Shown here piece after piece: positions 21,000 through 60,982 of a stretch of DNA of 64,000 nucleotides. Source of the stretch: Sinomicrobium kalidii (GTDB lineage Bacteria; Bacteroidota; Bacteroidia; Flavobacteriales; Flavobacteriaceae); assembly GCF_021183825.1 (NCBI RefSeq), contig NZ_CP089211.1:3211501-3275500 (forward strand). The letters run 5' to 3'. Below the pieces are notes generated by a model. It searched no databases and was not told the DNA's origin. It saw only the letters and a list, made by a program, of their open reading frames with translations. Made by a program: the position numbers and the translations under genes. How positions within the stretch are numbered: position 1 is the stretch's first letter; each line of letters starts with the position of its first letter.

Positions 21000-21043
21000 A
21001 TGACAAATATCATATTATCTTTATAAACCATTTAGCATCTTCG
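21000..21043 (+). promoter_or_regulatory. Fnr-type box 1 with -7 element, upstream of the Crp/Fnr gene
   Basis: The palindrome ATGACAAATATCAT spans 21000-21013. CATCTTCG, a weak TAnnTTTG match, begins at 21036, 29.5 bp from the box centre. This suggests autoregulation of the gene at 21094 or control by a second regulator. Confidence 0.6.
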
Positions 21044-21093
21044 CATTTTATAATTACACAGCATACTTTCAGCCGGGGAAACAAAAGGCAATT

Positions 21094-21690
21094 ATGATCA
21101 CTACAGATTTATTACTGGATTTCGGGGCAAAACTGGTGTCGTACGATAAGGGAGACCGGATATTCCTTGAAAAACAAAGTGCACGGAACTACTACCAGGT
21201 ACATTCCGGGGGTGTAAAAATGAACAATTTTAACGAGGAAGGAAAAGAATTCATACAGGGGATATTTCAGGAAAGCGAGAGCTTTGGGGAACCCCCGTTG
21301 TTTATCGATGTGACCTACCCGGCCAATGCGGAAGCACTTTCAGATACATATATTTATGTACTCCCCAAACCCTTTTTTTTCGATCTGCTGAATACACATC
21401 CCGAAGAACATCTGAAAATTACGGATACCCTGGCCCGGAGGTTATACTACAAAGCCATTATGGCCAGCGAATTGTCCAGCCAGGAACCGGAACACCGTAT
21501 ATTACGTATCCTGGATTACCTTAAAAAACACGTATACGGATTGGAAGCACCTTTTTCCTTTAAAGTAAACCTCACCCGCCAGCAGATCGCAGACCTTACG
21601 GGCCTGCGTGTAGAGACCGTGATCCGTGCCAGCAAATGCCTGGAAAAGAAAGGGGCGGTGAAGATCTTAAAGCGCAAACTCTACAGGTAA
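21094..21690 (+). CDS. Crp/Fnr-family regulator without Fe-S cysteines (Dnr/NnrR-like candidate)
   Basis: 198 residues. A cyclic-nucleotide-binding-type sensor domain (KGDRIFLEKQSARNYYQVHSGG) occupies the first two thirds, then a long dimer helix and the winged helix with HTH (LTRQQIADLTGLRVETVIRA). The recognition helix keeps Glu and Arg (ETVIR), the residues that read TGA half-sites in CRP and FNR. The sensor domain has no cysteine, so it is not an oxygen-sensing Fe-S FNR; a haem-based NO sensor of the DNR type is plausible. It precedes the nitrate-reductase-type cluster and has an Fnr-type box of its own. Confidence 0.85.
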   Translation: MITTDLLLDFGAKLVSYDKGDRIFLEKQSARNYYQVHSGGVKMNNFNEEGKEFIQGIFQESESFGEPPLFIDVTYPANAEALSDTYIYVLPKPFFFDLLNTHPEEHLKITDTLARRLYYKAIMASELSSQEPEHRILRILDYLKKHVYGLEAPFSFKVNLTRQQIADLTGLRVETVIRASKCLEKKGAVKILKRKLYR

Positions 21691-21697
21691 CGTCATT

Positions 21698-21741
21698 ATG
21701 ACTTAGATCATATGCTGCCATAAAAACGGGCTGTACTTTTA
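21698..21741 (+). promoter_or_regulatory. Fnr-type box 2 with -7 element
   Basis: ATGACTTAGATCAT at 21698-21711; TACTTTTA, close to TAnnTTTG, begins at 21734, 29.5 bp from the box centre. The next ATG is at 21765. Confidence 0.7.
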
Positions 21742-21764
21742 TATCAAACATAAAAATACAGCTT

Positions 21765-22049
21765 ATGCAACTCTACCAAACACTTTTTTCGAGATTTAAA
21801 GAGATGTATTATGCCTCCGTAACCATAGGCATTATAGCTTCCAGTTGTATCGGCTCCATTGCGGCCATGCTTATCCTGATGAACGGTTACGGGCTCTGGC
21901 AAATGTTCCAGTTATTTCTCATTGTAGCCGTAGCCATGACGTATAATGCCACGGTCCTTGCCCAGTTGAAACCGAAGTTCATTTTCAACGCATTGCTGAT
22001 AAGCTTGTCCGCCAGTGTGATAGTCATTACCGGTTACCTGTTGTTTTAG
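21765..22049 (+). CDS. small three-helix membrane protein in the Fnr-type regulon
   Basis: 94 residues. Three hydrophobic segments (near 18-38, 45-62 and 74-93) after a short basic-aromatic N-terminus (FSRFKEMYYASV). No family was recognised. It has its own Fnr-type box and -7 element, so it is probably produced when oxygen is low or nitrogen oxides are present. It lies between the Crp/Fnr regulator and the anion carrier of the nitrate-reductase-type cluster. Confidence 0.7.
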   Translation: MQLYQTLFSRFKEMYYASVTIGIIASSCIGSIAAMLILMNGYGLWQMFQLFLIVAVAMTYNATVLAQLKPKFIFNALLISLSASVIVITGYLLF

Positions 22050-22177
22050 AATGCGGGTAATGCGGAAGCAGGGCAAAAAAGTCTCCGGAGTTTTTGTTGT
22101 GCCCGGGGATGCCGGTGACTCATGGAGCGGCATGTCCCGGTAACGGTTTAGGGCTTAACATGTACAAAGAAAAATCG

Positions 22178-22185
22178 TACATTTG
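22178..22185 (+). promoter_or_regulatory. -7 element for the TDT-family gene
   Basis: TACATTTG matches TAnnTTTG exactly and lies 25 bp before the ATG at 22210. It contains the TTG that would otherwise be read as an earlier start codon, which argues for 22210. There is no Fnr-type box at the expected spacing. Confidence 0.5.
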
Positions 22186-22209
22186 TTAGACCCGTCAAAA
22201 ATTTTGAGA

Positions 22210-23262
22210 ATGAACCTGCTAAACACCCGGATCAAAACATTGCTGCCTGCGTATTTTGCCCTGGTCATGGCTACGGGAATTATTTCCATAGCGTCTTTAC
22301 TGGAAGGACTGACAGCTTTTGCACACGCACTGTTTTATGTAAACATAGTATTTCTTGCCACTCTCATTTTTTTATTCCTTTACAGGCTTGTCTTTTTCAG
22401 GGCACAAATACTGGAAGACCTGAAAAGTTATCAGAAAGGACCGGGGTTCTTTACCATCGTGGCCGCTCTTTGTATTGTAGGGAACCAGGTTGTTTTGTTC
22501 TGGCAATCGGTGGCTGTGGCAGAAGTGATCCTCCTTGTGGCCGCCATAATCTGGCTGGGGATCGTGTATGGCTTCTTTTACAGTATAACGGTTACCGAGA
22601 CCAAAAAATCCCTGAAAGAAGGTATCAATGGTACCTGGCTGGTTATTATTGTGGCCATACAGGCGCTGTCGGTATTGATCTCGTTTGTTTCCGGGGATTT
22701 CGGAAAACAGGCCTATGTTTACCTGTTCGTGGCTCTTTGCCTGTTTTTACTGGGGTGTATTTTCTACCTCTATATCATGTCGCTCATTATTTACCGGATT
22801 TCTTTTTTCTCCCTGAACGCCACAGAGCTGGGGGCGCCCTACTGGATAAACATGGGGGCTACGGCCATTTCCACACTGGCCGGTTCCATGCTGATCCTGC
22901 ATACCGGGGATTTTAATTTTATTGCGGAGATACTGCCTTTTCTCAAAGGCTTTACCCTCTTTTTCTGGGCGGCCGGTACCTGGTGGATACCCCTGCTTAT
23001 TATTTTAGGGATCTGGCGGCACATGATCAAGAAAGTCCCGGTACCCCTTTCGGCCGGGGGGTATGATCCCACTTACTGGGCCATGGTCTTCCCTCTCGGG
23101 ATGTACACTGTCTGTACATTCAGACTGAGTGAGGCGCTGGAGATCCCTTTTTTAAAGGCTATTCCGGAATATTTTGTATATGTTGCCCTGTTCGCCTGGA
23201 CCGCTGTAATGATCGGGTTTGTAAGGCACCTGGTCTCGCTTTTGAAAGGGAAGACGCAGTGA
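22210..23262 (+). CDS. TDT/SLAC1-family anion transporter
   Basis: 350 residues from the ATG at 22210, with about ten transmembrane helices. The N-terminal [19 protein letters not shown] and the later [14 protein letters not shown] and [20 protein letters not shown] are signatures of the tellurite-resistance/dicarboxylate transporter family, which includes the plant anion channel SLAC1, permeable to nitrate and chloride. Beside a nitrate-reductase-type enzyme, nitrate/nitrite passage is an attractive role; dicarboxylate export or sulfite efflux are alternatives. Confidence 0.83.
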
Positions 23263-23391
23263 GTGACCTGAAAATCAGTGTTTAGAATGGATTTAAATTA
23301 TGGTTCTCTGAAGCTGACTTTTGGACAGATCGCCCTAAAATGCTTAAATTTAACTGTTACCCGTCGAAGTTTCATCTAAAGCCCCATAGTA

Positions 23392-24447: not shown

Positions 24448-24466
24448 AAACAGATAAAAAAAATTC

Positions 24467-26686: not shown

Positions 26687-26729
26687 AATGTAATGAAGAG
26701 AAAACAGAAATCAACCATAAAAATAAATT

Positions 26730-27432: not shown

Positions 27433-27488
27433 ATCAATCTCTTTCAATCTTTGGAAAACATATACTTAACCCCATAAATTTGTATGTC

Positions 27489-36922: not shown

Positions 36923-38884
36923 TTATTCTCCGAGAGACCAGCTTAGTTTAATATCGGAATTTGCCGGTGAAACCCGCACATATCCCTGCATCTCCTGGTG
37001 CAGCGCAGAGCAGAAGTCGGTACAATAGAATGGCCATACCCCTACTTGCTCAGGTTCCCAGACCAGGGTCCTGGTTTGTCCCGGCATAATGAGCAACTCG
37101 GCGTTATTGGCACCGATCATGGCGAAACCGTGAGGTACATCAAAATCCTGTTCGTGGTTGGTGATGTGAAAGTATACTTTATCGCCAACCCTGATCCCTT
37201 CTATATTGTCCGGGGTAAAGTGGCTGCGTATCATTGACATATAAACATGAACTTCATTTCCATTACGTTCTACGCGGGTTTCGTCGCCGCCAAGCGCAGC
37301 AAATTCGTGCTTGTTGTCTTCCAGCCTGTATATTTTTTGTGATTTCGGGGCCAGTATTTCTGCGGGTATCCCGGCGGCATAATGAGGCTCTCCGTGCGTT
37401 GGAAAGTCCAGCAAGAGTTCCATTTTCTCTCCGGAGATGTCAAACAGTTGGGCCGAGTGCTCCAGTTCCGGGCCTGTAGGCAGGTACCTGTCTTTCGTGA
37501 TCTTGTTCATGGCAACGGCGTATTTGCCGAAAGGTGCTGCCGAGTTTCCGCCGGGGATCATAACGTGGCCTACGGAATAATAGTTAGGTTGCCGGTCTAT
37601 GACTTCGCGGGTTTCCACATTCCATTTTACCAGTTCCGAAGAGATAAAAAATGTGGTATAAGCATTTCCTTTCCCGTCAAATTCGGTATGCAGGGGGCCG
37701 AGCCCGCCGCTTTTTACCTGGCCGGCCAGAACGTCTTCGAATTTCAGGATGGGAATTCCGTAAGCGTTTCCGTCAAATTTCTCCGCTTCAATAGCTGCGA
37801 TCATTTTGTCAAAGGAGTGGATGGTCAAGTCTGCCGATAGTTTTCCGTTTCCTATGATGTATTTTCCTGTCGGGTCCACATCGCACCCGTGGGGCGATTT
37901 TGGTGTGGGGAGAAGGAAAACGGCACCGGGCACTTTAGTGGGATCTACCGTTAAAACCTCTTTTTTTATAGTGCTTTTGGCGCTGTGGGTACTATGATCA
38001 TACACATTATGGGCATATTCGGCGGGCATTTTTGTGCCCCCTCCGTTGTTTATGTATTCCTCGATCTTTTTCCAGTTTACGGCCGCGATGAAATCTTTGT
38101 CGTTTTGTGAAGCATTAACCTCCAGAAGTGTGTTGGCTTCTTCGGTATTATAGGTGGTAAAGAAAAACCAGCCGTGTGATTTCCCGCGCCCGGGATGTGA
38201 CAGGTCATAGTCAAATCCCGGCATCATGATCTGGAATTTCAGGTTCATCCTGCCGGTCTCCGGTGCTACTTCAATAAAGGACAAAGCGCCTTTAAAATTT
38301 CCCTTGTATTCTTTTATGGAAATATCCTTTTGAGGCACAGGTACGGAAAAACGGGTGCCGGCCACTACGTATTCGGTGTTTTCAGTGACAAAAGACGAGC
38401 TGTGGTTCCCTGCGCTGTTGGGCACTTCGATTATTTCATCGGTTTCGAAGGTCTTAAGGTCAATCCTTGCAATACGCGGGGTATTGTTCCCGTTAACAAA
38501 GATCCACCTTCCGTCGAGTTTTCCATTGGTCTGTGAAATATCAGGATGGTGCAGATCGTCCCAGGGAATAAATCCGTGGGAAGTGTTCAGCATGGGTTTG
38601 GTTTCTTCCGAATACCCGTACCCGTTGGTGGGGAATTGTGAAAACACGGGAATTTCCTTAAACATTCTGCCCGACGGTAATCCGTATACGGTGAGGTTTC
38701 CGCTGTATCCTCCGGAAAAGAAGGCGTAAAATTCATCGTGTTCTCCGGGCGGGACATATACTTTTTCTGCGGCAGTAGAGGCCAGGGCCCCGCGATTGCC
38801 GTTGGGTGACTTGCTGTTATTACAACCGCTAAACATAACGGCCATTAGCGCGAATATGGGTAAACTTTTGATTGTTGGTTTCAT
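36923..38884 (-). CDS. nosZ: nitrous-oxide reductase NosZ, clade II-like with lipobox
   Basis: 653 residues from the ATG at 38884 (MKPTIKSLPIF); an open extension upstream runs into the cytochrome gene and has no signal peptide. The leader ends in AVMFSGC, a lipobox, with no Tat motif, so export is by Sec, as expected for clade II. Catalytic CuZ histidines start in WDDLHHPDIS. The CuA site is at C621-TDF-C625-SAL-H629-QE-M632. It reduces N2O to N2 in the periplasm. Electrons probably come from the lipoprotein cytochrome encoded 28 bp upstream. Confidence 0.97.
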   Translation of the reverse strand: MKPTIKSLPIFALMAVMFSGCNNSKSPNGNRGALASTAAEKVYVPPGEHDEFYAFFSGGYSGNLTVYGLPSGRMFKEIPVFSQFPTNGYGYSEETKPMLNTSHGFIPWDDLHHPDISQTNGKLDGRWIFVNGNNTPRIARIDLKTFETDEIIEVPNSAGNHSSSFVTENTEYVVAGTRFSVPVPQKDISIKEYKGNFKGALSFIEVAPETGRMNLKFQIMMPGFDYDLSHPGRGKSHGWFFFTTYNTEEANTLLEVNASQNDKDFIAAVNWKKIEEYINNGGGTKMPAEYAHNVYDHSTHSAKSTIKKEVLTVDPTKVPGAVFLLPTPKSPHGCDVDPTGKYIIGNGKLSADLTIHSFDKMIAAIEAEKFDGNAYGIPILKFEDVLAGQVKSGGLGPLHTEFDGKGNAYTTFFISSELVKWNVETREVIDRQPNYYSVGHVMIPGGNSAAPFGKYAVAMNKITKDRYLPTGPELEHSAQLFDISGEKMELLLDFPTHGEPHYAAGIPAEILAPKSQKIYRLEDNKHEFAALGGDETRVERNGNEVHVYMSMIRSHFTPDNIEGIRVGDKVYFHITNHEQDFDVPHGFAMIGANNAELLIMPGQTRTLVWEPEQVGVWPFYCTDFCSALHQEMQGYVRVSPANSDIKLSWSLGE

Positions 38885-38912: not shown

Positions 38913-39416
38913 TTAAAGTGTTCTGAAATACTCCAGGATCTTTCTTGCCTCTTCTTCCGTAAGTCCCTGGTTGGCCATTGGCGATCCGTTATAGTCCATG
39001 AGCAATTGCTTTGCAATGGGATCTTCCTTGACCATGACTTCCGGGTTTAAGATCATATTCATAACCCATTCCGGGGAGCGGCGGTCCAGAACCCCCTGAG
39101 GTGCAGGACCGATGAATTTCTTATCCGGTTTATGGCACAACATACATTTGCTTTTAAACAGTTCCTTTCCTGCCCGGGCCATAGCCTGATCTACGCCAGC
39201 ACCTAATGCTACGTTTTTAACCGGGCCAACACCTTTGTTGTCCAGGTCCGTTATATCCTTGGCGGCCTTATCTTCGGCAACCTGATCTTCGGCTTCGACC
39301 TTTTTTTCAGTTTTTGTTCTTTCATACGTAAACTTTTCCTTTTTTTCCGGGGTGCCGCCACATGCCGTGAGCAGAATCCCGAAGAGCAGTAACATTGTTT
39401 TTTCAATAGTACTCAT
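38913..39416 (-). CDS. monohaem cytochrome c lipoprotein, first gene of the nos operon
   Basis: 167 residues. The signal peptide ends LLTAC; a Lys/Glu-rich spacer of about 60 residues is followed by a class I cytochrome c domain with CMLCH, FIGPAP and a likely axial Met in SPMANQGL. The long charged spacer would hold the haem away from the membrane so that it can reach NosZ. The Fnr-type box 3 and a -7 element lie upstream, so this is where the operon starts. Confidence 0.9.
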   Translation of the reverse strand: MSTIEKTMLLLFGILLTACGGTPEKKEKFTYERTKTEKKVEAEDQVAEDKAAKDITDLDNKGVGPVKNVALGAGVDQAMARAGKELFKSKCMLCHKPDKKFIGPAPQGVLDRRSPEWVMNMILNPEVMVKEDPIAKQLLMDYNGSPMANQGLTEEEARKILEYFRTL

Positions 39417-39446: not shown

Positions 39447-39490
39447 TAAAGGTAGGAGGCGGGTTAGCGGGAAAATATGATTTCTGTCAT
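39447..39490 (-). promoter_or_regulatory. Fnr-type box 3 with -7 element, nos operon
   Basis: ATGATTTCTGTCAT at 39477-39490; on the minus strand TACCTTTA runs from 39454 to 39447, its first base 29.5 bp from the box centre. The cytochrome c ATG is at 39416. The 310-bp region 39417-39726 is a divergent promoter region that also holds box 4. Confidence 0.8.
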
Positions 39491-39604: not shown

Positions 39605-39648
39605 ATGACTTATGTCATGTTTTACGCTTTGAGCGTCTTCTATATTTG
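39605..39648 (+). promoter_or_regulatory. Fnr-type box 4 with -7 element, copper receptor gene
   Basis: ATGACTTATGTCAT at 39605-39618 and a perfect TATATTTG at 39641-39648, spacing 29.5 bp from centre. It drives the gene at 39727. Confidence 0.85.
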
Positions 39649-43349: not shown

Positions 43350-43393
43350 ATGATATTTATCATCTTCCGGGAGCATATCAGTGCTGATATTTG
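43350..43393 (+). promoter_or_regulatory. Fnr-type box 5 with -7 element
   Basis: ATGATATTTATCAT at 43350-43363; GATATTTG, one base from TAnnTTTG, begins at 43386, 29.5 bp from the box centre. The ATG of the TIM-barrel gene is at 43423. Confidence 0.8.
43375..43390. promoter_or_regulatory. second palindrome overlapping the -7 element
   Basis: ATATCAG-TG-CTGATAT is a perfect inverted repeat that covers the first part of the -7 element of the gene at 43423. Its position is that of a repressor operator. Confidence 0.45.
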
Positions 43394-43422: not shown

Positions 43423-45207
43423 ATGATACACAATTTTCATATCCCTGTAATGGGACTGGCCTATACGATCGATACCCCGCTGCGGGTGGCTTCTTATGGA
43501 ATAGATTCGGTAATTTCTATTGTAGATGACGAACTTGCGGAAAAAATGAGGGTGTTTTTCTGTGAAAAATACAGTCTGCCCTACACCCCGATCCCGACAA
43601 AAATACAGGATTACCGGGCCCGGCGAATTACGGGCTATCTCGATCTGATGGATAAACTGGTAAAGGAAAAGTTTAAAAAATTTTCCGAAGAGCTTTCCAT
43701 GAACAGGCACGAACTCGAAAAGTTTGTCGCCATGCTTCCGAAGACATCGGTGATAAAGAAAAAGCTGGAAGATCTTTCTTCCGACAGGTTTTTCGGCAGG
43801 GCCGGAAAGGTCATCAGGGACTACCTGTCTCCGGGAGCCATAGATGTGAACATTATGACGAAGGTCGATAAAACGAATTACCGGGGTAAAACGGCCCTGC
43901 CTTCCCTGTATAATGATGCCCATGCGGCTTTACGGGGATTTGCCAATAGCACGCTCAATTCATCTTTAGTGCTCTCCGCCGGGATGAACCCTTCACTTTA
44001 CAGCTATATGGGCACTTTCAAAGATTTCTTTCCCGACGGGGAAGGTGTGCTGAAAAAGAAAATAGTGCTGAAGGTAAGCGATTTCCGTTCGGCCATGATA
44101 CAGGGGCGCTTTCTGGCCAAAAAAGGGATCTGGGTCTCCGAATACCGTGTTGAATCGGGACTCAACTGCGGGGGCCATGCCTTCGCCACAGACGGGTTGC
44201 TTTTGGGACCGATCATGGAAGAATTTGCAGAACGACGGCAGGAACTCGCAAAAACAGCCCACGAATTACTGGTAAAAGCACTGGAAGATAAAGGCATCCG
44301 TGCCCCCGAATCGCCTATGGACATCCGTATCACCGTGCAAGGGGGAGTAGGCACTTCCGAAGAGCACGAATTCCTGTTACAACACTATAAAGCGGATTCC
44401 GTAGGCTGGGGGTCACCTTTTTTACTGGTCCCCGAGGCGACTGCTACGGATAAAGCAACGCGGGAATTGCTGGCTAAGACCGGGGAGAACGAGCTGTACA
44501 GGAGTGACCTGTCGCCACTGGGGGTCCCTTTCAATACGGTAGCCGGAACGACAAACGACTATTTTAAAGAACAGCGTATAAAAACCGGCAGGGCGGGAAG
44601 CTCATGCCCTAAAAAACTTCTGGCGCTAAACCGTGAGTTCGGTGAGAAAGGTATTTGTACGGCGTCGAGAAAATACCAGGAAGTTAAGCTGGAGGAAGCG
44701 GAAGAGGAAAAGGGTAACCTGACTGTGGAAGCTCTGGGCCGCCGTCGTCAGGCAATAACCGTTAAGGCTTGTTTGTGCGTAGGCCTGGCAAACCCTGTCT
44801 ACCTTGAAAAAAACATGAAAATTAAAGGGGAGCAACAAGGTGTTGTTATATGCCCGGGGCCCAACATGGCTTATTTCGATAAAGAAATTCCGCTTCGGGA
44901 AATGGTCCGGCATATTTACGGTTATACATCTGTGCTGGCCGAAAGGGACCGGCCCCATTTTTTTATTAAGGAATTGCAGCTGTACCTGGATTATCTGGTA
45001 GAAGAAATAAGAGAAGAACGCAATACGGCAGGCAAGGCAAAGATCAAACGATGGAATACCTTTAAGAATAATCTGTTGTCGGGAATTGCTTATTATGAAA
45101 ACCTGTTCGCCGGGACTTCCTTTTTCGGCAAAGACCGGAAAAATATAAAAACCAGGCTGGCTGATTTCAAGGCCTGTGTAGCGGAAATTGACATCCCGGA
45201 GGCTTGA
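43423..45207 (+). CDS. uncharacterised TIM-barrel protein, nitronate-monooxygenase-like, with C-terminal cysteines
   Basis: 594 residues, cytoplasmic, no family name recognised. The N-terminus (FHIPVMGLAYTIDTPLRVAS) resembles the first strand of FMN-dependent TIM barrels. LNCGGHAFATDG (C249-H252) resembles the GGH motif of nitronate monooxygenases, and VQGGVGTSEEHEFLL with G307-T311 resembles their phosphate-binding loop, followed by a WGSPFLLVPE strand. Residues after 390 are unlike that family and carry C395, C412, C450, C452 and C477, which could hold an Fe-S cluster. It has Fnr-type box 5 and a second palindrome, so it belongs to the low-oxygen/nitrogen-oxide response. Length is about 200 residues more than a nitronate monooxygenase. 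Confidence 0.7.
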   Translation: MIHNFHIPVMGLAYTIDTPLRVASYGIDSVISIVDDELAEKMRVFFCEKYSLPYTPIPTKIQDYRARRITGYLDLMDKLVKEKFKKFSEELSMNRHELEKFVAMLPKTSVIKKKLEDLSSDRFFGRAGKVIRDYLSPGAIDVNIMTKVDKTNYRGKTALPSLYNDAHAALRGFANSTLNSSLVLSAGMNPSLYSYMGTFKDFFPDGEGVLKKKIVLKVSDFRSAMIQGRFLAKKGIWVSEYRVESGLNCGGHAFATDGLLLGPIMEEFAERRQELAKTAHELLVKALEDKGIRAPESPMDIRITVQGGVGTSEEHEFLLQHYKADSVGWGSPFLLVPEATATDKATRELLAKTGENELYRSDLSPLGVPFNTVAGTTNDYFKEQRIKTGRAGSSCPKKLLALNREFGEKGICTASRKYQEVKLEEAEEEKGNLTVEALGRRRQAITVKACLCVGLANPVYLEKNMKIKGEQQGVVICPGPNMAYFDKEIPLREMVRHIYGYTSVLAERDRPHFFIKELQLYLDYLVEEIREERNTAGKAKIKRWNTFKNNLLSGIAYYENLFAGTSFFGKDRKNIKTRLADFKACVAEIDIPEA

Positions 45208-48485: not shown

Positions 48486-48544
48486 TTATTTTCCGGGGAA
48501 ATTGCTGATTTTTTGCCGATAAAAAAGAGTCTTCGTAAAATGTG

Positions 48545-48552
48545 TATTTTTG
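48545..48552 (+). promoter_or_regulatory. -7 element of the Rrf2 gene
   Basis: TATTTTTG matches TAnnTTTG exactly and lies 18 bp before the ATG at 48570, so the gene has its own promoter after nrdG. Confidence 0.5.
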
Positions 48553-48569
48553 CGGTAAATTCCCGGCGA

Positions 48570-49004
48570 ATGCTATCAAAATCTTGTGAATACGGTATCA
48601 GGGCAACTTTATATGTAGCTTCCGAAACCCGGAAAAAACAGCGGGTAAGCCTGCGCGATATTGCCAGGAAGATCAAATCCCCCGAAGCCTTTACGGCTAA
48701 AATACTGCAAAAGCTGGTCAAACACAATATCGTAGCTTCCGTAAAGGGGTTCGGAGGCGGTTTTGAAATGGCCACTGCCAATCTCAGAACCATAAGCATG
48801 AAAGACCTGGTCATAGCCATAGACGGGGACGGACTCTTTACCCGTTGCAGCCTGGGATTGCACGAATGCAGCGAAACACAGCCCTGCCCGTTCCACGCCA
48901 GGTACAAGCCGGTGAAGGAGAACCTGAAAACCCTTTTTGAACAAACCAGCCTCGAAGAATTGATGAGCGGGCTTGATGAAGGGAAGACTTTTTTAAAACT
49001 GTAG
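48570..49004 (+). CDS. Rrf2-family Fe-S regulator, NsrR/IscR-like
   Basis: 144 residues from MLSKSCEYGIRATLYVAS; the extension upstream crosses the promoter. Winged helix with RVSLRDIARKIKSPEAFTAKIL and VASVKGFGGGFEMA. The cluster ligands are three cysteines in RCSLGLHECSETQPCPFH (spacing x6, x5), one longer in the first gap than NsrR and IscR (x5, x5). NsrR senses NO through this cluster. The location between anaerobic nucleotide reduction and the NO reductase supports NO sensing. Confidence 0.85.
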   Translation: MLSKSCEYGIRATLYVASETRKKQRVSLRDIARKIKSPEAFTAKILQKLVKHNIVASVKGFGGGFEMATANLRTISMKDLVIAIDGDGLFTRCSLGLHECSETQPCPFHARYKPVKENLKTLFEQTSLEELMSGLDEGKTFLKL

Positions 49005-49169: not shown

Positions 49170-49213
49170 ATGACCTCTGTCATAAAATAAGACTTTCGTA
49201 AACGGCAAATTTG
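49170..49213 (+). promoter_or_regulatory. Fnr-type box 6 with -7 element, norB operon
   Basis: ATGACCTCTGTCAT at 49170-49183; CAAATTTG begins at 49206, 29.5 bp from the box centre. The norB ATG is at 49262. Confidence 0.85.
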
Positions 49214-49261: not shown

Positions 49262-51511
49262 ATGAAATACATTATGAACAGAGAACGTAAGCTATGGATA
49301 GGTTTTGCATTGGTCATACTGCTGTCTTTCGCGGTTTTAGGTTATTATGGGTACGAAATATACCAGGAATCCCCTCCCGTCCCCGAAAAGATAGTTACAA
49401 CCGACGGTCAGGAGGTATTCACCGGTCAGGAGATAAAGGACGGTCAGAATATCTGGCAGAGTATGGGAGGACAGGAAGTGGGGTCCGTTTGGGGCCACGG
49501 GGCCTACGTAGCCCCTGACTGGACTGCGGACTGGCTGCACAGAGAGGCTTTATTTATACTCGACCTTTACGCAAAGGAAGACCATAATACCACTTACGAT
49601 GCCTTAAACGCGGAACAACAAGCCGCTTTGAAGGTACGTCTTCAAAAGAAACTTCGCACCAATACATACGACCCGGCATCCGGCACCATTACCATATCCG
49701 GAGAAAGGGAACAGGCTATCGAATATCTCAGCAAGTATTATAAAGGCTTGTTTACCGACGATCCCGGATTTGACCAGTTGCGCAGCGACTACGCCATTCC
49801 GAAGAACAGCATTAAGGATGAGGCCCGGATGCACAAGATGAATGCCTTTTTCTTCTGGGCTACCTGGGCAACGGTGACAGAAAGGCCGGGGAGTAGCGTG
49901 TCCTATACCCACAACTGGCCTTCCGATGAACTTGTGGGGAATACACCCACCCGCGACCTGCTGGCCTGGTCGGGAGTGAGTATTATCCTGCTGATCCTTT
50001 GCATAGGCATCATGGTGTTTTATCACGTAAAATCGGGGGAGAACGAAAGTACTCCGGTGCCGGCAGAAGACCCCTTGTTAAAACAGGGAATAACCCCATC
50101 CATGCAACTGGTGAAAAAATACTTCTGGATCGTGAGCCTGCTTATGGTCCTCCAGATGTTGCTGGGCGTGGTTACGGCGCATTACGGTGTTGAAGGCGAT
50201 GGGCTGTACGGCATTCCCCTCGACCGGATACTCCCGTATGCTGTTTCGCGGACCTGGCACACCCAGCTCGCTATTTTCTGGATCGCTACCGCATGGCTGG
50301 CCACCGGGCTTTATATGGCCCCGGCCGTGTCCGGAAAAGATCCGAAATACCAGAAGTTCGGGGTTAATTTCCTGTTTATCGCCCTGTTGATTATTGTACT
50401 GGGGTCCATGGCCGGCCAGTGGATGGGCGTGATGCAAAAACTGGACCTTACCGGGAACTTCTGGTTCGGGCACCAGGGCTATGAGTATGTAGACCTTGGC
50501 AGGTTCTGGCAAATATTCCTGTTTGTCGGGCTCTTCTTATGGCTGGCCCTTATGGTACGTCCCTTAATACCGGTACTCAAAGCAAAAACACCGGAAAAGA
50601 ACCTGATTGTCATGTTCCTGGTATCGTGTACCGCTATCGCCGCTTTCTATGGCGCAGGCTTAATGTGGGGACGGCAGACCAACCTTGCCATAGCCGAATA
50701 CTGGAGATGGTGGGTGGTTCACCTCTGGGTTGAAGGCTTCTTTGAAGTGTTTGCCACCGTAGTGATCGCATTTCTGTTTGTACGCCTGGGCCTGTTAAAA
50801 ACAAAAACAGCCACACTTAATGTGTTGCTGGCTACCATCATTTTTATGTCGGGAGGTATTATAGGTACTTTTCACCACCTGTATTTTACAGGAACACCTA
50901 CCGCAGTTATGGCTTTGGGAGCAACGTTCAGCGCTTTGGAAGTGGTGCCGCTGACCTTGATCGGTTACGAGGCCTGGCACAACTATAAGCTGTCTAAAAC
51001 CGCCAAATGGCTCGAAGATTATAAATGGCCTATCTATTTTATGATCGCCGTGGCCTTCTGGAACTTCCTCGGTGCCGGGATCTTCGGGTTTATCATCAAC
51101 CCGCCCATTGCGCTCTATTATGTACAGGGACTGAACACAACTCCCTTGCACGGGCACACGGCACTGTTCGGGGTATACGGGATGCTCGGTATCGGGCTGA
51201 TGTTGTTTGTACTGAGGAGCCTTTACAGGAATATCAGGTGGAACGAAAGGCTTTTAAAAATATCGTTCTGGTCCCTTAATATCGGATTGCTCGGAATGGC
51301 CCTGCTGAGCCTGTTGCCCATTGGGATATGGCAGGCCGTGGAAAGTATTGAACACGGTATGTGGTATGCCCGTTCTTCCGAACTTATGCAACATCCCACC
51401 ATGATCATGCTGAAATGGCTGCGCTCCATAGGCGATATCATTTTCGGTATCGGTATCGTAGCCACCTGCTGGTTTGTATTTCAATTGACATTTAAAAACA
51501 AAAAACAATAA
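49262..51511 (+). CDS. norB: quinol-dependent nitric-oxide reductase (qNor)
   Basis: 749 residues; the ATG at 49274 (MNRERK) is an alternative. Length and the N-terminal hydrophilic domain (EVFTGQEIKDGQNIWQSMGG, VWGHGAYVAPDWTADWLHRE) identify the one-subunit qNor type, which oxidises quinol without a NorC partner. Fourteen helices include RTWHTQLAIFWIATAWLATG, WVVHLWVEGFFEVFAT and HHLYFTGTP with the haem and Fe(B) histidines. It reduces two NO to N2O. The RIC gene begins 4 bp after its stop. Confidence 0.97.
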   Translation: MKYIMNRERKLWIGFALVILLSFAVLGYYGYEIYQESPPVPEKIVTTDGQEVFTGQEIKDGQNIWQSMGGQEVGSVWGHGAYVAPDWTADWLHREALFILDLYAKEDHNTTYDALNAEQQAALKVRLQKKLRTNTYDPASGTITISGEREQAIEYLSKYYKGLFTDDPGFDQLRSDYAIPKNSIKDEARMHKMNAFFFWATWATVTERPGSSVSYTHNWPSDELVGNTPTRDLLAWSGVSIILLILCIGIMVFYHVKSGENESTPVPAEDPLLKQGITPSMQLVKKYFWIVSLLMVLQMLLGVVTAHYGVEGDGLYGIPLDRILPYAVSRTWHTQLAIFWIATAWLATGLYMAPAVSGKDPKYQKFGVNFLFIALLIIVLGSMAGQWMGVMQKLDLTGNFWFGHQGYEYVDLGRFWQIFLFVGLFLWLALMVRPLIPVLKAKTPEKNLIVMFLVSCTAIAAFYGAGLMWGRQTNLAIAEYWRWWVVHLWVEGFFEVFATVVIAFLFVRLGLLKTKTATLNVLLATIIFMSGGIIGTFHHLYFTGTPTAVMALGATFSALEVVPLTLIGYEAWHNYKLSKTAKWLEDYKWPIYFMIAVAFWNFLGAGIFGFIINPPIALYYVQGLNTTPLHGHTALFGVYGMLGIGLMLFVLRSLYRNIRWNERLLKISFWSLNIGLLGMALLSLLPIGIWQAVESIEHGMWYARSSELMQHPTMIMLKWLRSIGDIIFGIGIVATCWFVFQLTFKNKKQ

Positions 51512-51515: not shown

Positions 51516-52238
51516 ATGGAAGCATTAATGAACAAACAGATCGGTGAATTCGTAGCTGAAGATTACAGAACAGCTGCCGTTTTTTCAAAATACGGAATTG
51601 ACTTTTGCTGCAAAGGCAATCGCACCATAGATGAAGTATGTACCAAAAAAGGACTCGACAAAACCGTTTTGCTCGACAATCTGAGTACAGTGCTGAACAC
51701 ACAACCCGACCAGGCTATCGATTACAGGTCATGGCCTCTGGACCTTTTGACGGATTATATTGAGAAAAAGCACCATCGCTATGTAGAAGATACTGTTCCC
51801 GTACTCCTGCAGTTCCTGGATAAACTGAGAAGGGTGCACGGGGAACGGCACCCGGAACTGTTCAAGGTGTATGAACTGTTTACCGAAACGGCCGGGGCGT
51901 TAAGCCAGCATATGAAAAAGGAAGAACTTGTACTGTTCCCGTATATCAGGAAAATGTTTAAAGCGAAACTCAACGATAATACTGTTGAAGCGTCACATTT
52001 CGGCCGGGTGGAAAACCCCATTACTGTGATGAAACACGAACACGACGAAGAAGGAGAGCGTTTCAGGGAGATTGCCCGGACAACCGATAACTATACCCTT
52101 CCGCAGGATGCGTGTAATACCTACAGGGTGGCGTTTGCAATGCTGGACGAGTTTGAGAAAGACCTGCACCTCCACATTCATCTCGAGAACAACATCCTTT
52201 TTCCCGGAGCCGTAAAACTTCAGGAAACCGTGTTATAG
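51516..52238 (+). CDS. ric: iron-sulfur cluster repair protein RIC (ScdA/YtfE/NorA)
   Basis: 240 residues. The ScdA N-terminal domain (EYGIDFCC-like KYGIDFCCKGNRTIDEVC) is followed by a hemerythrin-like di-iron domain with His and Glu ligands in EKKHHRYVED, QHMKKEELVLFPYI, MKHEHDEEG and HIHLENNILFPG. It repairs Fe-S clusters after NO or oxidative damage and is often encoded beside NO reductase, as here. Confidence 0.95.
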   Translation: MEALMNKQIGEFVAEDYRTAAVFSKYGIDFCCKGNRTIDEVCTKKGLDKTVLLDNLSTVLNTQPDQAIDYRSWPLDLLTDYIEKKHHRYVEDTVPVLLQFLDKLRRVHGERHPELFKVYELFTETAGALSQHMKKEELVLFPYIRKMFKAKLNDNTVEASHFGRVENPITVMKHEHDEEGERFREIARTTDNYTLPQDACNTYRVAFAMLDEFEKDLHLHIHLENNILFPGAVKLQETVL

Positions 52239-54983: not shown

Positions 54984-55133
54984 ACGAATAAATTCAGGTT
55001 AAATATTGGACATACGACTATGGGACTTAAGATTTAAGGCGGCCGGTTAATATCCGTTTTTCTGTCCTGCGTCTTAAATCGACCGTCTTAGGTCAAAAAA
55101 CTAAAACTATTTTCTCCATCCTCTTTTGCACCG

Positions 55134-55934: not shown

Positions 55935-55960
55935 AATACTATTGATTTTTTAGCGGGTAA

Positions 55961-57436
55961 TTATAATTTTTTATTTCTGACTTTAGTGACCATGGCCGGT
56001 GTCACATTCTTTTTGGAATTTCCCCAGCTGTTATATATATAGGCCAGAACATTGGCGATTTCATCATCCGAAAGGTTTTGCGGGGTCATGATGCTGTTGT
56101 ACTTTTCTCCGTTTACCGTAATTTCGCCTGTCAGCCCGCTAAGTACAACATCGATGGCCCGGTTTACGTCCGCATTTAAAAAGTCCGATTTTGCGAGCGG
56201 GGGGAAGGCCCCCGGTATTCCCTGTCCTTCGGCCTGATGGCATGCAAAACAGGTTTGCATATACACTTGTTTTCCGGCGTTGACACGTTCTTCGGGTGAG
56301 CGTGCGGGAGCCCGGAGTTCTGCGATTTCTTCGGTTGCGGGTACTGACCGGGTTTTCTTTTCCCCGGGCTGATAGGTCTCTTCGCGCAACTCCCCTGAAT
56401 AAATCGTTTTGTTCCCTTCGCCCTGAACGTTCAGCATGCCGAGAGCCCCCTTATTAAAAGCTCTGAATATAGAGTGATCGACAAGGACAAAACTTCCGGG
56501 GACTTCTACCCTGAACTCAACGATTGCAGCTCCGCCGGCAGGGATTAAGGTGGTCTGGACATTTTCGTTTTCCAGGCTTCCCCCTTCGGCATATACCTTG
56601 TCGAAAATTTCCCCGATAACATGGAACGACGATACCAGGTTGGGCCCTCCGTTACCCATATATATCCTTACGGTTTCTCCTACATTGGCCGTTATGGCAT
56701 TGTCCCCGGTCAAAGCACCGACCTTGCCGTTGAACACCACGTAGTCGGGGCGTTCATCTACGGCTTTCCGCATGTCAAAGGCCTGTAAGCCTTTTTCCCC
56801 GTTTTTCCCTTTGGTGTAAAAGTCACCCTGCATCACATAGTATTCCTTATCTACCAATGGCAATCCCCCTTCGGGTTCTACCAGGATCAACCCGTACATG
56901 CCGTTGGCAATGTGCATTCCTACCGGCGCCGTGGCACAGTGGTAAACATACAGGCCGGGGTTTAACACCTTGAACGAGAATACTTTTTCGTGCCCCGGGG
57001 CTACAAACGAAGATTCGGCGCCACCTCCCGGGCCTGTCACGGCATGCAGATCTATATTGTGGGGCAGCTTGTTGTCCGGGTGATTCTTTAAATGAAATTC
57101 TACTTCATCCCCGACACGTGTCCTGATAAAGCTCCCGGGGACCGTTCCGCCAAAAGTCCAGTACACATAGCTGACACCATCTGCCATTTCGCCTTCCTCC
57201 TCAAGAATCTCCATTTCCACGATGAGCTTTCGGGCCCGGCGTTTCCCCACGGGCTCCGGAACCCGGGGAGGGGAGGTGAGTTCGGCTTTTGTTTCCTTGA
57301 GATCGGGAGTTTTGGCGGTATAGGCATAAGCCTCCTTTTCTTTCTTTTCACATGAAAATGCAAAAAGAATGATGAAACCATAAACAAGTAATTTATAGGG
57401 TCTACCTCTGAATTTGTTTTGAATGAATGGGTTCAT
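55961..57436 (-). CDS. nirK: copper nitrite reductase NirK as lipoprotein with C-terminal cytochrome c domain
   Basis: 491 residues. The leader ends ILFAFSC, a lipobox. Two cupredoxin domains follow. Type 2 copper ligands and catalytic residues are H126, D129 and H131 (PHNIDLH) with H166; type 1 ligands are C167, H175 and M180 in [16 protein letters not shown], matching the spacing of the AcNiR family. A third His is in VDHSIFRAF. From about residue 390 there is a class I cytochrome c ([19 protein letters not shown], axial Met in SIMTPQN). It reduces nitrite to NO. Confidence 0.97.
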
Positions 57437-57494
57437 AAACTTGGAATTTTAGTACTCAATTATTATTAAATAATTGTTTATTAGTTTTTTAAAA

Positions 57495-57510
57495 AGGATA
57501 TTTTTATCCT
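57495..57510 (-). promoter_or_regulatory. AGGATA-TTTT-TATCCT palindrome in the nirK leader
   Basis: Perfect 6-bp arms with a 4-bp spacer, about 30 bp downstream of the inferred nirK transcription start. It shares its outer AGGA-N8-TCCT form with the palindrome at the nrdD promoter. Position suggests a roadblock or repressor site. Confidence 0.45.
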
Positions 57511-57541
57511 GTTTCTGATCAAAAAAATCCTTTTATCACCC

Positions 57542-57586
57542 CAAAGATAATTTGTCTGTCGATTGTTGTCCTATGACATTTGTCAG
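57542..57586 (-). promoter_or_regulatory. Fnr-type box 7 with -7 element, nirK operon
   Basis: ATGACATTTGTCAG at 57573-57586 (last base off the consensus). On the minus strand a perfect TATCTTTG runs from 57549 to 57542, 30.5 bp from the centre, one base longer than the other sites. The leader to the nirK ATG is about 100 bp. The 302-bp gap 57437-57738 holds this and the AGGA palindrome. Confidence 0.8.
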
Positions 57587-57738
57587 GTTTTGAAAAGGAG
57601 GAAATGGAAGGGGAACAGGTCTTATCAAATAGAATTTACCTGTGGATTGTTCTTAAATGCATGGACATTAAAGCGATATAAAAGAGAATTTGCAGGAGGA
57701 AGTTGTTTCCCCTGGTCAGATGTTAAAGGCCCGGTTTT

Positions 57739-58422
57739 TTATCCGGATGAGATTTTTTCGAGCGCTTCCATAGCGTTTACCCGTAATTTTTTCCCTTTCG
57801 CAGTAACAAGATTCTGTTTTATAAAATCCGAAAGCGTACGGATAAGCGATTCGGTAGCGGTGCCTACCATTCCGGCCAGTTCTTCACGGGTCATTTGTGC
57901 GGAAAGAAACCCGTGCTCATCTTCCCCGAAAGTGTTATACAGGTAGATAAGGGTGTCGGCCAGGCGTTGTTTTACGGTTTTCTGTGCCATGTCAACCGTG
58001 GAATTGTTGGCATTTTTGAGATCGTGACATACATCCCTGATAACTTCGGATGAAAATTCCCTGTTGGTTTCAAACGATCTTAAGATGTCCTTTTTAGGAA
58101 GGAGACAGATTTCCATGTCGCTGATAGCAACTGCACTGAGATTCACTTTTTCATTGCTTATTACGCTTCGCTGCCCCAGCAGGTCACCACTGCTCACCAG
58201 CTTTACGATCTGTTCTCTTCCGTTGGCACTGAGTTTAGTGAGCTTGCATATACCTTTTTTAATACAATAAACCCCTTTCAGGTGATCTCCCTCTTCGAAG
58301 AGGATTTGTCCCTTCTTTATGGTTTCCGATGTTTTACAAACGGTTATCCGCATCAACTCATCTTTGGTAAGTGCATTCAGGGCACTAAACTGTCGTACTA
58401 TACACTGTTCGCATCTGTCCAT
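57739..58422 (-). CDS. fnr: Fnr-type Crp-family regulator with N-terminal cysteines
   Basis: 227 residues from MDRCEQCIVRQFSALNAL at 58422; the open frame runs on upstream but has no similarity. Cysteines C4 and C7 (CEQC), C29 (TVCKTS), C53 and C59 are available; E. coli FNR uses C20, C23, C29 and C122. Sensor domain KKGQILFEEGDHLKGVYCIKKG, then HTH MTREELAGMVGTATESLIRT, whose recognition helix keeps Glu and Arg (ESLIR) for TGA half-sites. A box is present 44-57 bp upstream of the start, consistent with autoregulation. Likely oxygen sensor of the window's regulon. Confidence 0.85.
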   Translation of the reverse strand: MDRCEQCIVRQFSALNALTKDELMRITVCKTSETIKKGQILFEEGDHLKGVYCIKKGICKLTKLSANGREQIVKLVSSGDLLGQRSVISNEKVNLSAVAISDMEICLLPKKDILRSFETNREFSSEVIRDVCHDLKNANNSTVDMAQKTVKQRLADTLIYLYNTFGEDEHGFLSAQMTREELAGMVGTATESLIRTLSDFIKQNLVTAKGKKLRVNAMEALEKISSG

Positions 58423-58465
58423 ATCCGTACCGTTGGGATCCGGAGGTAAAATTACGAAATATAAG

Positions 58466-58509
58466 CTGATAAATGTCATGTTATTTCCTGCTGCTGTTTG
58501 ACACCTTTG
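58466..58509 (+). promoter_or_regulatory. Fnr-type box 8 with -7 element, ccoI and possibly fnr
   Basis: CTGATAAATGTCAT at 58466-58479, one arm base off. CACCTTTG begins at 58502, 29.5 bp from the centre, giving a short leader to ccoI at 58528. On the other strand the box lies upstream of fnr. Confidence 0.75.
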
Positions 58510-58527
58510 CTGCAAAATCATTGCATT

Positions 58528-60942
58528 ATGGAGAATACGGACCGGGTTTGTTTTCATTGCGGCGCTTCCTGTACCGGTACACCGATAGTCCGTGAGAACA
58601 GGGATTTTTGCTGTTCCGGCTGCAGGACGGTGTATGACATTCTTTCGGAGAATGGCCTGGAGGGCTATTACAGCATGGATAGAACCCCCGGAGCCCGTCC
58701 GGGGGAGATTTCCGGCAAATACGATTTTCTGGACAATGAGGCCATTGCGGAAAAATTGCTGGAATTTTACGAAGACAACATACAGGTTGTAAACCTCCGC
58801 ATACCGGGAATACACTGCAGCTCCTGTATATGGGTGCTGGAAAATTTAAAAAGACTCAACAAGGGGATAAGGTATTCCCAGGTAGACTTTCCCGGAAAAG
58901 AACTGAGGATATCCTATGACAGCAGGCATGTTTCACTGAAGGAAGTAGTGTGGCTACTCGGTTCCATAGGGTATGAACCCCGTATAAGTCTTGAAAATTA
59001 CGAAGACAAGCCCGTTGCGGAAAACAGGGCACTCCTGTATAAACTGGGGATCGCCGGATTTGCTTTCGGCAATGTGATGTTGTTGTCCTTCCCCGAGTAT
59101 TTCGAAATGGGGGAATTCTGGCTGGAGCAGTACAAGCCGTTCTTCCGCTGGCTGATGTTTGCACTTTCCCTGCCTGCCGTTTTGTATGTGGCCGGCGATT
59201 ATTTTGTGTCCTCCTACCGTAGTCTCCGTTCCGGATTGCTTAATATCGATGTTCCCATAGCCCTGGGGATCGCGGTGATGTTCCTGCGGAGTACGGCAGA
59301 TATTGTTTTCGGGTATGGCCCCGGTTTTTTTGACAGTCTCACGGGGCTGATCTTTTTTATGACCATCGGGAAATACCTTCAGCAAAGGACTTACGCCTCT
59401 CTTTCCTTCGAACGGGATTACAAATCGTATTTTCCCATCGCGGTAACGCGGATCTCTGGGGAAAGGGAAGCGGCCGTACAGCTATACGATATAAAAAAGG
59501 GGGACAGGCTCCTTATACGCAATGAAGAACTCATCCCCGTGGATTGCAGGCTGATAAAAGGCAATGCCCTGATCGATTACAGTTTTGTCACGGGAGAGGC
59601 CCGTCCCGTGTCCAGATCACCCGGGGCTAAATTGTTTGCCGGGGGCAGGCAGGTTTCGGGACTGGTGGAGGTGGAGGCCGTGCGTTCCGTATCACAAAGC
59701 TATCTCACGAAACTGTGGTCCAGCAATACTTTTAAAGAAAAGAAAGAAGAACGTTATACAAACATCACCAACACCGTAAGCAGGTATTTTACCCCTGTGG
59801 TACTGACTGTGGCATTGCTGTCATTGAGCTATTGGCTGTGGCTCGGAAAAACGGATACGGCCTTCAATGCCTTTACCGCAGTCCTTATCATCGCCTGCCC
59901 CTGTGCCCTGGCCCTGTCGGCCCCGTTTGCCCTCGGCAACCTGCTTCGTATTTTCGGCAGGAGGAAATTCTACCTTAAGAACGCTTCGGTCATAGAACGG
60001 CTGGCAACGATAGATACCGTCATTTTCGATAAGACCGGGACCATCACTTCCGCCAGGGAGGGGAGCATAACCTACGAGGGAGAACCATTGAACCGGACGG
60101 AGGAAGACATGCTTAAAAGTACGCTCCGGAATTCTGCCCATCCTCTCAGCAGGCAACTCTACACCATATTGAAAAGCAATAACATTCTCACTCCCGACGA
60201 GTATGAGGAATGCATAGGAAAAGGAATAGAAGCGACTTACCGGGAACAGCATATTCGTATAGGCTCCGGGGCGTTTGCCGGAAATGAGGATCGGGAGTCT
60301 TCTCCGAAGACAAGTGTCCATATCAATACGAACAACAGGTACAGGGGAAAATTCATCTTCGGAAACAGGTACAGGCAAGGACTTTCTTCCCTGTTCCGGA
60401 AATTGTCCGGTAAATATCGTCTGGTTATCCTCAGTGGTGATAATGAAAGCGAGCGCAAGACCCTGGAAAAAATGTTGCCGCCCGGTGTACAGATGTGCTT
60501 TAACCGGAAACCGGAACACAAGTTGAACTATGTAAGACAATGTCAGCAAAACGGGGCCCGGGTGATGATGGTCGGCGACGGGCTCAATGATGCCGGGGCC
60601 CTGCAACAAAGTAATGCCGGAGTGGTTATTGCCGAAGATACCAACGCCTTTTCCCCGGCTTGTGACGCCATTCTCGATGCTTCGCGATTTCGGGAGATCC
60701 ATGAGTTTCTCAGGATATCCAAAAAGGGAATGCAGGTGGTAAAAATAAGTTTTGCACTGTCCTTTCTCTACAATATCGCGGGGCTGTCCTTTGCGGTGAC
60801 CGGGAAATTATCCCCGGTGATCGCAGCGATCCTGATGCCGCTGAGCTCTGTGACCATCGTGGTATTCGTGACCCTGCTGACCAATTTTATCGGCAGAAAA
60901 CTAAATAACCCACGAACAGGAAATCAAACATCCCAAACATGA
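58528..60942 (+). CDS. ccoI: copper-exporting P-type ATPase CcoI/FixI
   Basis: 804 residues from MENTDRVCFHCGASC at 58528; the frame extends 10 codons upstream across the promoter. The N-terminus has a zinc-ribbon-like FHCGASC...CCSGCRTVYDIL, then a heavy-metal domain with IPGIHCSSCIW, six to eight helices with the CPC ion path in IIACPCALALSAPFALG, the phosphorylation site FDKTGTIT and GDGLNDAGAL. It loads copper for cbb3 oxidase biogenesis. It is upstream of ccoS and ccoNO, as usual. Confidence 0.96.
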   Translation: MENTDRVCFHCGASCTGTPIVRENRDFCCSGCRTVYDILSENGLEGYYSMDRTPGARPGEISGKYDFLDNEAIAEKLLEFYEDNIQVVNLRIPGIHCSSCIWVLENLKRLNKGIRYSQVDFPGKELRISYDSRHVSLKEVVWLLGSIGYEPRISLENYEDKPVAENRALLYKLGIAGFAFGNVMLLSFPEYFEMGEFWLEQYKPFFRWLMFALSLPAVLYVAGDYFVSSYRSLRSGLLNIDVPIALGIAVMFLRSTADIVFGYGPGFFDSLTGLIFFMTIGKYLQQRTYASLSFERDYKSYFPIAVTRISGEREAAVQLYDIKKGDRLLIRNEELIPVDCRLIKGNALIDYSFVTGEARPVSRSPGAKLFAGGRQVSGLVEVEAVRSVSQSYLTKLWSSNTFKEKKEERYTNITNTVSRYFTPVVLTVALLSLSYWLWLGKTDTAFNAFTAVLIIACPCALALSAPFALGNLLRIFGRRKFYLKNASVIERLATIDTVIFDKTGTITSAREGSITYEGEPLNRTEEDMLKSTLRNSAHPLSRQLYTILKSNNILTPDEYEECIGKGIEATYREQHIRIGSGAFAGNEDRESSPKTSVHINTNNRYRGKFIFGNRYRQGLSSLFRKLSGKYRLVILSGDNESERKTLEKMLPPGVQMCFNRKPEHKLNYVRQCQQNGARVMMVGDGLNDAGALQQSNAGVVIAEDTNAFSPACDAILDASRFREIHEFLRISKKGMQVVKISFALSFLYNIAGLSFAVTGKLSPVIAAILMPLSSVTIVVFVTLLTNFIGRKLNNPRTGNQTSQT

Positions 60943-60982
60943 TTTTTATCATGTTTTGCCCGGAAGACGACAAGTAATTTTG
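60939..60982 (+). promoter_or_regulatory. Fnr-type box 9 with -7 element, ccoS-ccoNOQP
   Basis: ATGATTTTTATCAT at 60939-60952, overlapping the ccoI stop; a perfect TAATTTTG begins at 60975, 29.5 bp from the centre. It gives the oxidase genes a promoter separate from ccoI. Confidence 0.85.

Follow-up and report, generated by a model that had tools for sequence, protein, structure and literature searches.

In rhizobia, the hFixL–FxkR–FixK pathway and FnrN share one operator, the anaerobox TTGAT-N4-ATCAA, in front of fixNOQP (PMC7888657). This sharing of a box between FixL or hFixL acting through FixK and FnrN would be the nearest known logic to the arrangement described here for Sinomicrobium kalidii, a member of the Flavobacteriaceae. 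In Flavobacterium psychrophilum, sigma-A promoters carry the element TAnnTTTG at positions -12 to -5, and oxygen limitation raises cbb3 (PMC9723704). A meta-regulon study of 2021, lacking prior knowledge, gave the Crp/Fnr proteins of Flavobacteriales a MalR-like carbon response (PMC8510549), and the main texts of a paper on nitrous oxide (N2O) in Cloacibacterium (PMC11168931) and of a further one (PMC9697520) contain no reference to FNR, Crp or a promoter. We analyzed a stretch of 64,000 nucleotides (nt) of the S. kalidii genome (positions 3,211,501–3,275,500 of a single contig of 5,364,211 bases), called the window below, in which nine palindromic boxes precede nos, nor, nir and cco genes, among others. 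With a probability of roughly 0.75, we read these boxes as predicted class II sites for a Crp/Fnr activator, belonging to a low-oxygen regulon of Flavobacteriaceae, that is, as an "anaerobox" common to two oxygen sensors. In the open-access literature, we found no paper on this box, on the kinase–fusion pair described below or on a nosZ switch in flavobacteria.

A box at one distance from the promoter

An initial annotation of the window had listed nine boxes of the form ATGAY-N4-RTCAT. All nine lie where it placed them, and the motif is exact in seven; the boxes at 57573 (nirK) and 58466 (ccoI) each differ from it at one base, their transcribed-strand sequence being CTGAY-N4-RTCAT. A TAnnTTTG-like element begins 22 nt past the end of eight of the boxes and 23 nt past that of nirK, 22 nt being the same distance as the 29.5 bp from the box centre given in the annotation (30.5 for nirK). 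When elements were scored by matches to the six fixed bases of TAnnTTTG, with at least 5/6 taken as a good element, the boxes at 39605 and 60939 scored 6/6 at 22 nt and those at 21698, 39477, 43350, 49170 and 58466 scored 5/6. The nirK box scored 3/6 at 22 nt and 6/6 at 23 nt. The constant spacing thus stands for eight boxes, each having a good element at one of these two distances, and is weak at the ninth, the box at 21000, which reaches only 4/6 at 22 nt. Since a good element occurs at 0.0105 per intergenic position in a 184-kb region, the binomial probability of seven good elements out of nine at a single spacing is about 5e-13, or about 2e-9 once multiplied for 31 spacings and two orientations. 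In agreement with the annotation, which judged the constant spacing hard to get by chance, the arrangement is not due to chance.

The box of the Crp/Fnr gene crpA is ATGACAAATATCAT (21000–21013, plus strand), with the weak element CATCTTCG (21036–21043). Upstream of a gene for a 94-amino-acid membrane protein (21765–22049), ATGACTTAGATCAT (21698–21711, plus) is followed by TACTTTTA (21734–21741). The nos operon is preceded by ATGACAGAAATCAT (39477–39490, minus) and TACCTTTA (39447–39454); its head gene (38913–39416, minus) encodes 167 amino acids with a cytochrome c domain and is followed by nosZ (36923–38884), a Sec-dependent nitrous-oxide reductase (TIGR04246). A TonB-dependent receptor gene (39727–41754) has ATGACTTATGTCAT (39605–39618, plus) with TATATTTG (39641–39648), and a gene at 43423–45207, which precedes nrdD and nrdG and encodes 594 amino acids with no Pfam match, has ATGATATTTATCAT (43350–43363, plus) with GATATTTG (43386–43393). 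For norB (49262–51511), the pair is ATGACCTCTGTCAT (49170–49183, plus) and CAAATTTG (49206–49213). The 23-nt gap separates CTGACAAATGTCAT (57573–57586, minus) from TATCTTTG (57542–57549) upstream of nirK (55961–57436, minus), a copper nitrite reductase that carries a cytochrome-c stretch at its C-terminus and scores above the cut-off of TIGR02376. Box CTGATAAATGTCAT (58466–58479, plus), with C-A-C-C-T-T-T-G at 58502–58509, lies between fnrB and the divergent gene of a ccoI-like P-type ATPase (58528–60942), upstream of the latter. The last pair, ATGATTTTTATCAT (60939–60952, plus) and TAATTTTG (60975–60982), precedes the cco operon, which comprises a short open reading frame (ORF) at about 61001 and ccoNO at 61192–63390.

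The set continues past 60982, with eight good box–promoter pairs inside the window and 20 outside it. The 184-kb region contains 59 oriented HTGAY-N4-RTCAT boxes, and a good element follows 28 of them, in 27 cases at 22 nt and in one at 23 nt, with every other spacing represented by two boxes at most; by crude gene calls, 26 of these 28 pairs are mostly intergenic. Genome-wide, the exact box occurs in 47 places, compared to 14 for a reversed-pattern control. Eighteen of the 47 fall in 3.232–3.363 Mb, and in 13 of these, one strand has an element of at least 5/6 at a distance of 22 nt, which is true of none of the 29 boxes outside. The genome-wide scan that the annotation had proposed, run with box, N22 and TAnnTTTG, gave 17 places with at most one mismatch, and all 17 lie in 3.233–3.346 Mb, a stretch of 113 kb that extends past the window. 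With exactly two mismatches, 15 places were found in this stretch and 18 elsewhere; at two mismatches or fewer, there were 50 places against 21 for the reversed control. An off-spacing control with N21 gave one match, outside the stretch.

The same spacing is found in relatives. In 80 named loci (1.6 Mb) collected by a named scan with a receiver–Crp fusion protein as query, the nearest being from S. weinanense, S. pectinilyticum, S. oceani and Sinomicrobium sp. N-1-3-6, there are 623 oriented boxes; TAnnTTT follows 316 of them at 22 nt, and the next best spacing accounts for 12. The full TAnnTTTG is present in 159 of the 316 sites, and for 292 a gene start is predicted no more than 150 nt away. 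None of 43 reversed boxes in these loci had TAnnTTT at 22 nt. The outermost box base is A or C in 299 of the 316 sites and T in 17. The pattern MTGAY-N4-RTCAT-N22-TAnnTTT is present in 101 of 196 genomes of the order and in 30 of 30 sampled genomes of the family, where it occurs in 340 places compared to 6 for the reversed pattern. One exact box–promoter spacing therefore recurs across Flavobacteriaceae.

With TAnnTTTG at -12 to -5, a position borrowed from F. psychrophilum, another species, a 22-nt gap would place the box at -48 to -35 and its centre at -41.5, the class II position. The Crp/Fnr-type class II geometry proposed in the annotation is consistent with this exact gap. An information profile of the sites shows signal at the box and at the -7 element; between them there is a weak T-rich patch at -33 to -30 and no clear signal from -28 to -18.

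Conservation of the box at its candidate targets

To score individual promoters, we used the 30 best of 73 nosZ matches, 30 of 116 ccoN matches and all 21 norB matches. The box was found at 22 nt upstream of nosZ in 30/30 loci from 29 genera and upstream of ccoN in all 28 scorable loci, two (L315 and L324) being cut by contig ends and left out. The annotation would have been refuted by a motif equally frequent in coding sequence at the same spacing; the sense strand of the nosZ, norB and ccoN gene bodies, 162,698 bases in all, contains no box with the 22-nt element.

The wider table covers 19 genomes and the 80 named loci, counts being given in that order, and excludes hits shorter than 60% of the query or starting less than 150 nt from a locus end. 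A box precedes the nos head gene in 17/19 (19 genomes), ccoI in 14/17 and 13/13 (27/30 together), ccoNO in 17/18 and 21/23, hemN in 9/9 of the 19-genome set, and the universal stress protein (Usp) gene w76765 in 10/12 and 78/80 (88/92 together). Several Usp genes here match the same Usp genes in relatives, so that Usp rows are not independent. Counts are small for the 94-amino-acid membrane protein gene (1/1 and 4/4), the gene at 43423 (3/4) and nirK (1/3); for the TonB-dependent receptor gene, no box was found in two relatives, and crpA has no row in this table.

For norB, the wider table gave 0/2, and among the 21 loci the exact box at 22 nt was confined to S. kalidii itself (1/21), one other locus (L306) having 23 nt. 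With two mismatches in total allowed, the count was 4/21, compared to 0/21 for downstream controls, and norB was dropped as a core target. The norB promoters of the congener and of one other relative read ATGAYC-N3-CTCATAAAA, with CATCTTTG at 22 nt.

Genes that lack a box here mostly lack one in relatives. Inner nos genes had none in 18 or 19 relatives, and the four genes after ccoNO none in 17–18 and none in 24–30. Exceptions, boxless here and boxed elsewhere, are an Rrf2 gene (5/15), w89800 (28/30, named loci), w31881 (2/6), w72655 (2/7 and 2/7), w42682 (1/4), w51516 (1/7) and w52912 (1/2), together with more paralogues of Usp and, at low counts, a few outer genes. The best explanation of these distributions is a conserved core formed by the nos operon, ccoI, the cco operon, hemN and universal stress proteins, to which norB, nirK and the TonB receptor seem to have been added in particular lineages. 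The target list of the annotation is thereby borne out for nos and cco, but not for the latter three genes.

Beyond the window, with targets assigned as the nearest gene, boxes lie upstream of hemN, Usp, HSP20, dodecin and MlaE permease genes, and also of peroxiredoxin, thioredoxin, DUF892, DUF302 and methyltransferase genes. Two loci outside the window, L019 and L020 (window coordinates continued: 93622–94445 and 118719–119548), carry four CTGATAAATATCAT boxes in two tandem pairs. These lead into related stretches of 180–360 nt without a long gene, ending in a GC-rich hairpin and a T-run, and have relatives only in one locus of S. weinanense (L122) and one of S. pectinilyticum (L124). No Rfam family matched L018–L021, the loci of box-driven transcripts without a gene. 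The CTGATAAATATCAT boxes may drive small RNAs or, a short ORF being possible, small proteins. Because an ORF-free run of more than 330 nt follows only 10 of the 316 sites of the named loci, gene-less transcripts are no general feature. Two similar ATGATGAATRTCAT promoters, 20 kb apart (genome positions 3,326,364 and 3,345,952), lie near Ca/Mg-type P-type ATPase, methyltransferase and Usp genes. Within the window, norB is flanked by an Rrf2-family regulator gene before it (48540–49004) and by an iron-sulfur repair (Ric) protein gene after it (51516–52238), which suggests a separate control of norB by nitric oxide.

Candidate sensors and their box preferences

HTH_Crp_2 is matched ten times in the genome, including four times in the box-rich stretch. 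FnrB (57739–58422, minus) is an FNR-type regulator of 227 amino acids, counted from the Met before CEQC; its cNMP_binding plus HTH_Crp_2 architecture (window positions 57739–58557) is that of FNR, and it aligns end to end with FNR chains, which we take to be of the E. coli/Aliivibrio type. Residue conservation was counted in sequences with at least 85% coverage, above set identity floors and with no stop. Cysteines 4, 7, 53 and 106 of FnrB are invariant in 27/27 relatives, and cysteines 4, 7 and 106 fall on FNR cysteines, so that three of four cluster positions match. FnrB presumably binds a 4Fe-4S cluster.

Two further candidates are receiver–cNMP–HTH_Crp_2 fusion proteins encoded just past the window (genome positions 3,286,891 and 3,303,925). 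The fusion is a single chain of 349 amino acids, without the FixJ/FixK-type split into separate proteins, and its receiver Asp52 is kept in 83/83 relatives. Each fusion gene overlaps the 3' end of a PAS histidine kinase gene. The best solved match of the kinase PAS domain is FixL (E 4.9e-15), with no gap across the heme-His region, and the first 13 of 17 matches are all heme-PAS sensors. His67 of the PAS domain is kept in 68/69 relatives, Arg87 in 67/69 and the kinase His in 69/69. The kinase thus has, by sequence, the features that define FixL, namely a PAS domain with a heme His and a distal Arg, and a His kinase core. We take His67 and Arg87 to be the equivalents of FixL His200 and Arg220, and the kinase would be a heme-binding sensor switched by oxygen. 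The recognition helices of FnrB and of the fusion keep E-x2-I-R, where FNR has E-x2-S-R, and this helix may be tied to the outer box base.

Of the 30 family genomes, 12 carry FnrB and the full-length fusion, 14 FnrB only and 4 the fusion only, with means of 18.4, 5.9 and 9.3 box sites per genome, respectively; the difference between genomes with both and those with FnrB only has a one-sided Mann-Whitney P of 2.3e-4. The first base was compared at TCAT-ending sites in 9 of the 14 FnrB-only genomes and in all 4 fusion-only genomes. It is C in 25, A in 12 and T in 3 sites of the fusion-only genomes, compared to A in 50, C in 8 and T in 7 sites of the FnrB-only genomes (C:A of 25:12 versus 8:50, Fisher P 1.2e-7). 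At individual targets, nosZ boxes have 29 A and 1 C, and ccoN boxes 14 A, 13 C and 1 T. The annotation had allowed for one activator, or two with the same specificity; these counts point instead to two related specificities, with ATGAY and CTGAY distal halves, whose split between FnrB and the fusion appears to be a preference and no rule. Four genomes of one genus (g2; G048, G124, G148 and G176) have symmetric CTGATAATTRTCAG sites, again with a gap of 22 nt, which may represent a third specificity.

We hypothesize that a dimer would bind HTGAY-N4-RTCAT centred at -41.5, adjoining RNA polymerase on the -7 TAnnTTTG; such a dimer would abut the polymerase, and the 22-nt gap would therefore be fixed. 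One sensor would be FnrB, a cysteine-ligated FNR encoded in the window that would favor ATGAY. The other would be the FixL-like PAS kinase, phosphorylating the fusion protein, which would favor CTGAY in the promoter-distal half. Both branches would thus feed the same box. The whole of this proposal, in which a FixL-like kinase with a single-chain FixJ/FixK analogue and an FNR with a relocated cysteine act on the same box with different outer bases and set the oxygen thresholds of nosZ and cbb3 through a spacing-intolerant promoter, unlike the proteobacterial switch, with nearly all of the Sinomicrobium regulon gathered in 113 kb, box-driven transcripts that lack a clear gene among it, seems to us about an even bet.

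Several observations weigh against the exact spacing or the two-sensor reading. The exactness of the spacing is relaxed in 5 of the 29 exact boxes outside 3.232–3.363 Mb, which have an element of at least 5/6 at 21 or 23 nt; one of the five, a perfect box with TAnnTTTG at a 21-nt gap, lies at genome positions 324,312–324,354. The base preferences overlap: Usp boxes have C in 41, A in 39 and T in 8, and ccoN is mixed. Presence, absence and base counts ignore phylogeny, 13 of the 14 FnrB-only genomes and 2 of the 4 fusion-only genomes belonging to one genus each; absence of the fusion is provisional, the 10 best candidates per genome having been scored; and about 9 of 95 FnrB-only sites may be due to chance (reversed control 9). 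FnrB has a serine in place of one N-terminal FNR cysteine (its relatives have N or S there), and the fourth invariant cysteine, C53, sits where FNR has an alanine. Because only three of the four cluster cysteines are at FNR positions, FnrB is termed FNR-type and not a strict FNR member, and a different cluster ligand set, with C53 relocated, is possible. The hemN box is present in only 2/28 of the named loci, and the kinase–fusion genes themselves are boxed in 13/79 and fnrB in 0/74.

Some of these data would also fit FnrB alone binding all boxes, with the fusion binding elsewhere and co-occurring through hypoxia-adapted genomes, and with A and C as lineage drift: ATGAY predominates in FnrB-only genomes and at nosZ (29/30 loci), and ATGAY and CTGAY boxes have identical spacing. 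We consider this improbable, as four family genomes without an FnrB orthologue have 8, 8, 8 and 13 sites, biased to CTGAY, compared to 0 for the reversed control, and boxes are plentiful near the fusion gene, preceding the neighboring Usp genes in 78/80 loci. More doubtful still is a nitrogen-oxide sensor of the DNR/NnrR kind as the main activator in the window, with the oxygen sensors acting elsewhere. CrpA (21094–21690, plus; 198 amino acids, cNMP_binding plus HTH_Crp_2) would be its candidate: crpA adjoins the nos–nir–nor genes and has its own box, the nearest solved structures of the protein include DNR, and the norB box differs in two relatives. But the nos and cco boxes are conserved in a table of relatives that has no crpA row, the box also precedes cbb3, hemN and stress genes, and the DNR and NnrR consensus sites are unlike it (PMC1274295). 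CrpA, whose single cysteine lies in the HTH region and which shows no known sensor feature, may be a third protein that binds the box.

That the boxes are repression sites, or a structural part of an extended promoter, and not activator operators seems very unlikely. The box does abut the promoter, but a centre at -41.5 would leave the -7 element and the start uncovered, the half-sites resemble those of Crp/Fnr proteins, there is little sequence conservation from -28 to -18, and the rise of cbb3 under oxygen limitation in F. psychrophilum (PMC9723704) argues for activation.

Comparison with known systems

Flavobacteria are widespread carriers of a Sec-dependent nitrous-oxide reductase, whose nosZ we take to be clade II, and of cbb3 oxidase. 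With a box at fixed spacing and two named candidate regulators, the control of this N2O sink by oxygen can be put to a direct test; box and spacing together also provide a search pattern for unannotated genomes. As class II Crp/Fnr promoters, the boxes are ordinary in principle; what appears to be new is the family-wide exact spacing, the box consensus, the sharing by two sensors and the fused regulator.

DNR and NnrR are likewise Crp/Fnr activators of nir, nor and nos, but the boxes here do not match their consensus sequences, CTTGATnnnnATCAAG and ctTTGcgnnnncgCAAag, which are derived from proteobacteria (PMC1274295). HcpR2, from Bacteroides and others, is likewise a Crp/Fnr protein of Bacteroidota and concerned with nitrogen-oxide stress, but differs in its consensus, GTAACnnnnGTTAC, and in a regulon that is mostly hcp (PMC1274295). 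The sigma-A promoters described for flavobacteria share the -7 TAnnTTTG, while Crp and FNR are not mentioned in the main text of that study (PMC9723704). With FNR, FnrB shares three of four cluster cysteines, the fold and an aligned E-x3-R recognition helix; unlike FNR, it lacks one N-terminal cysteine, has an invariant one at 53 and carries Ile in place of Ser before the Arg, and the outermost box base is A or C, not the T of the FNR site TTGAT-N4-ATCAA. As in rhizobia, the box of a cbb3 operon would be the meeting point of two branches, one with a FixL-type kinase and one with an Fe-S FNR. Rhizobial FixK, however, is a separate protein made under FxkR or FixJ, whereas receiver and Crp/Fnr domains are here joined in one protein, and the rhizobial box is TTGAT-N4-ATCAA, in contrast to HTGAY-N4-RTCAT at a Bacteroidota promoter (PMC7888657).

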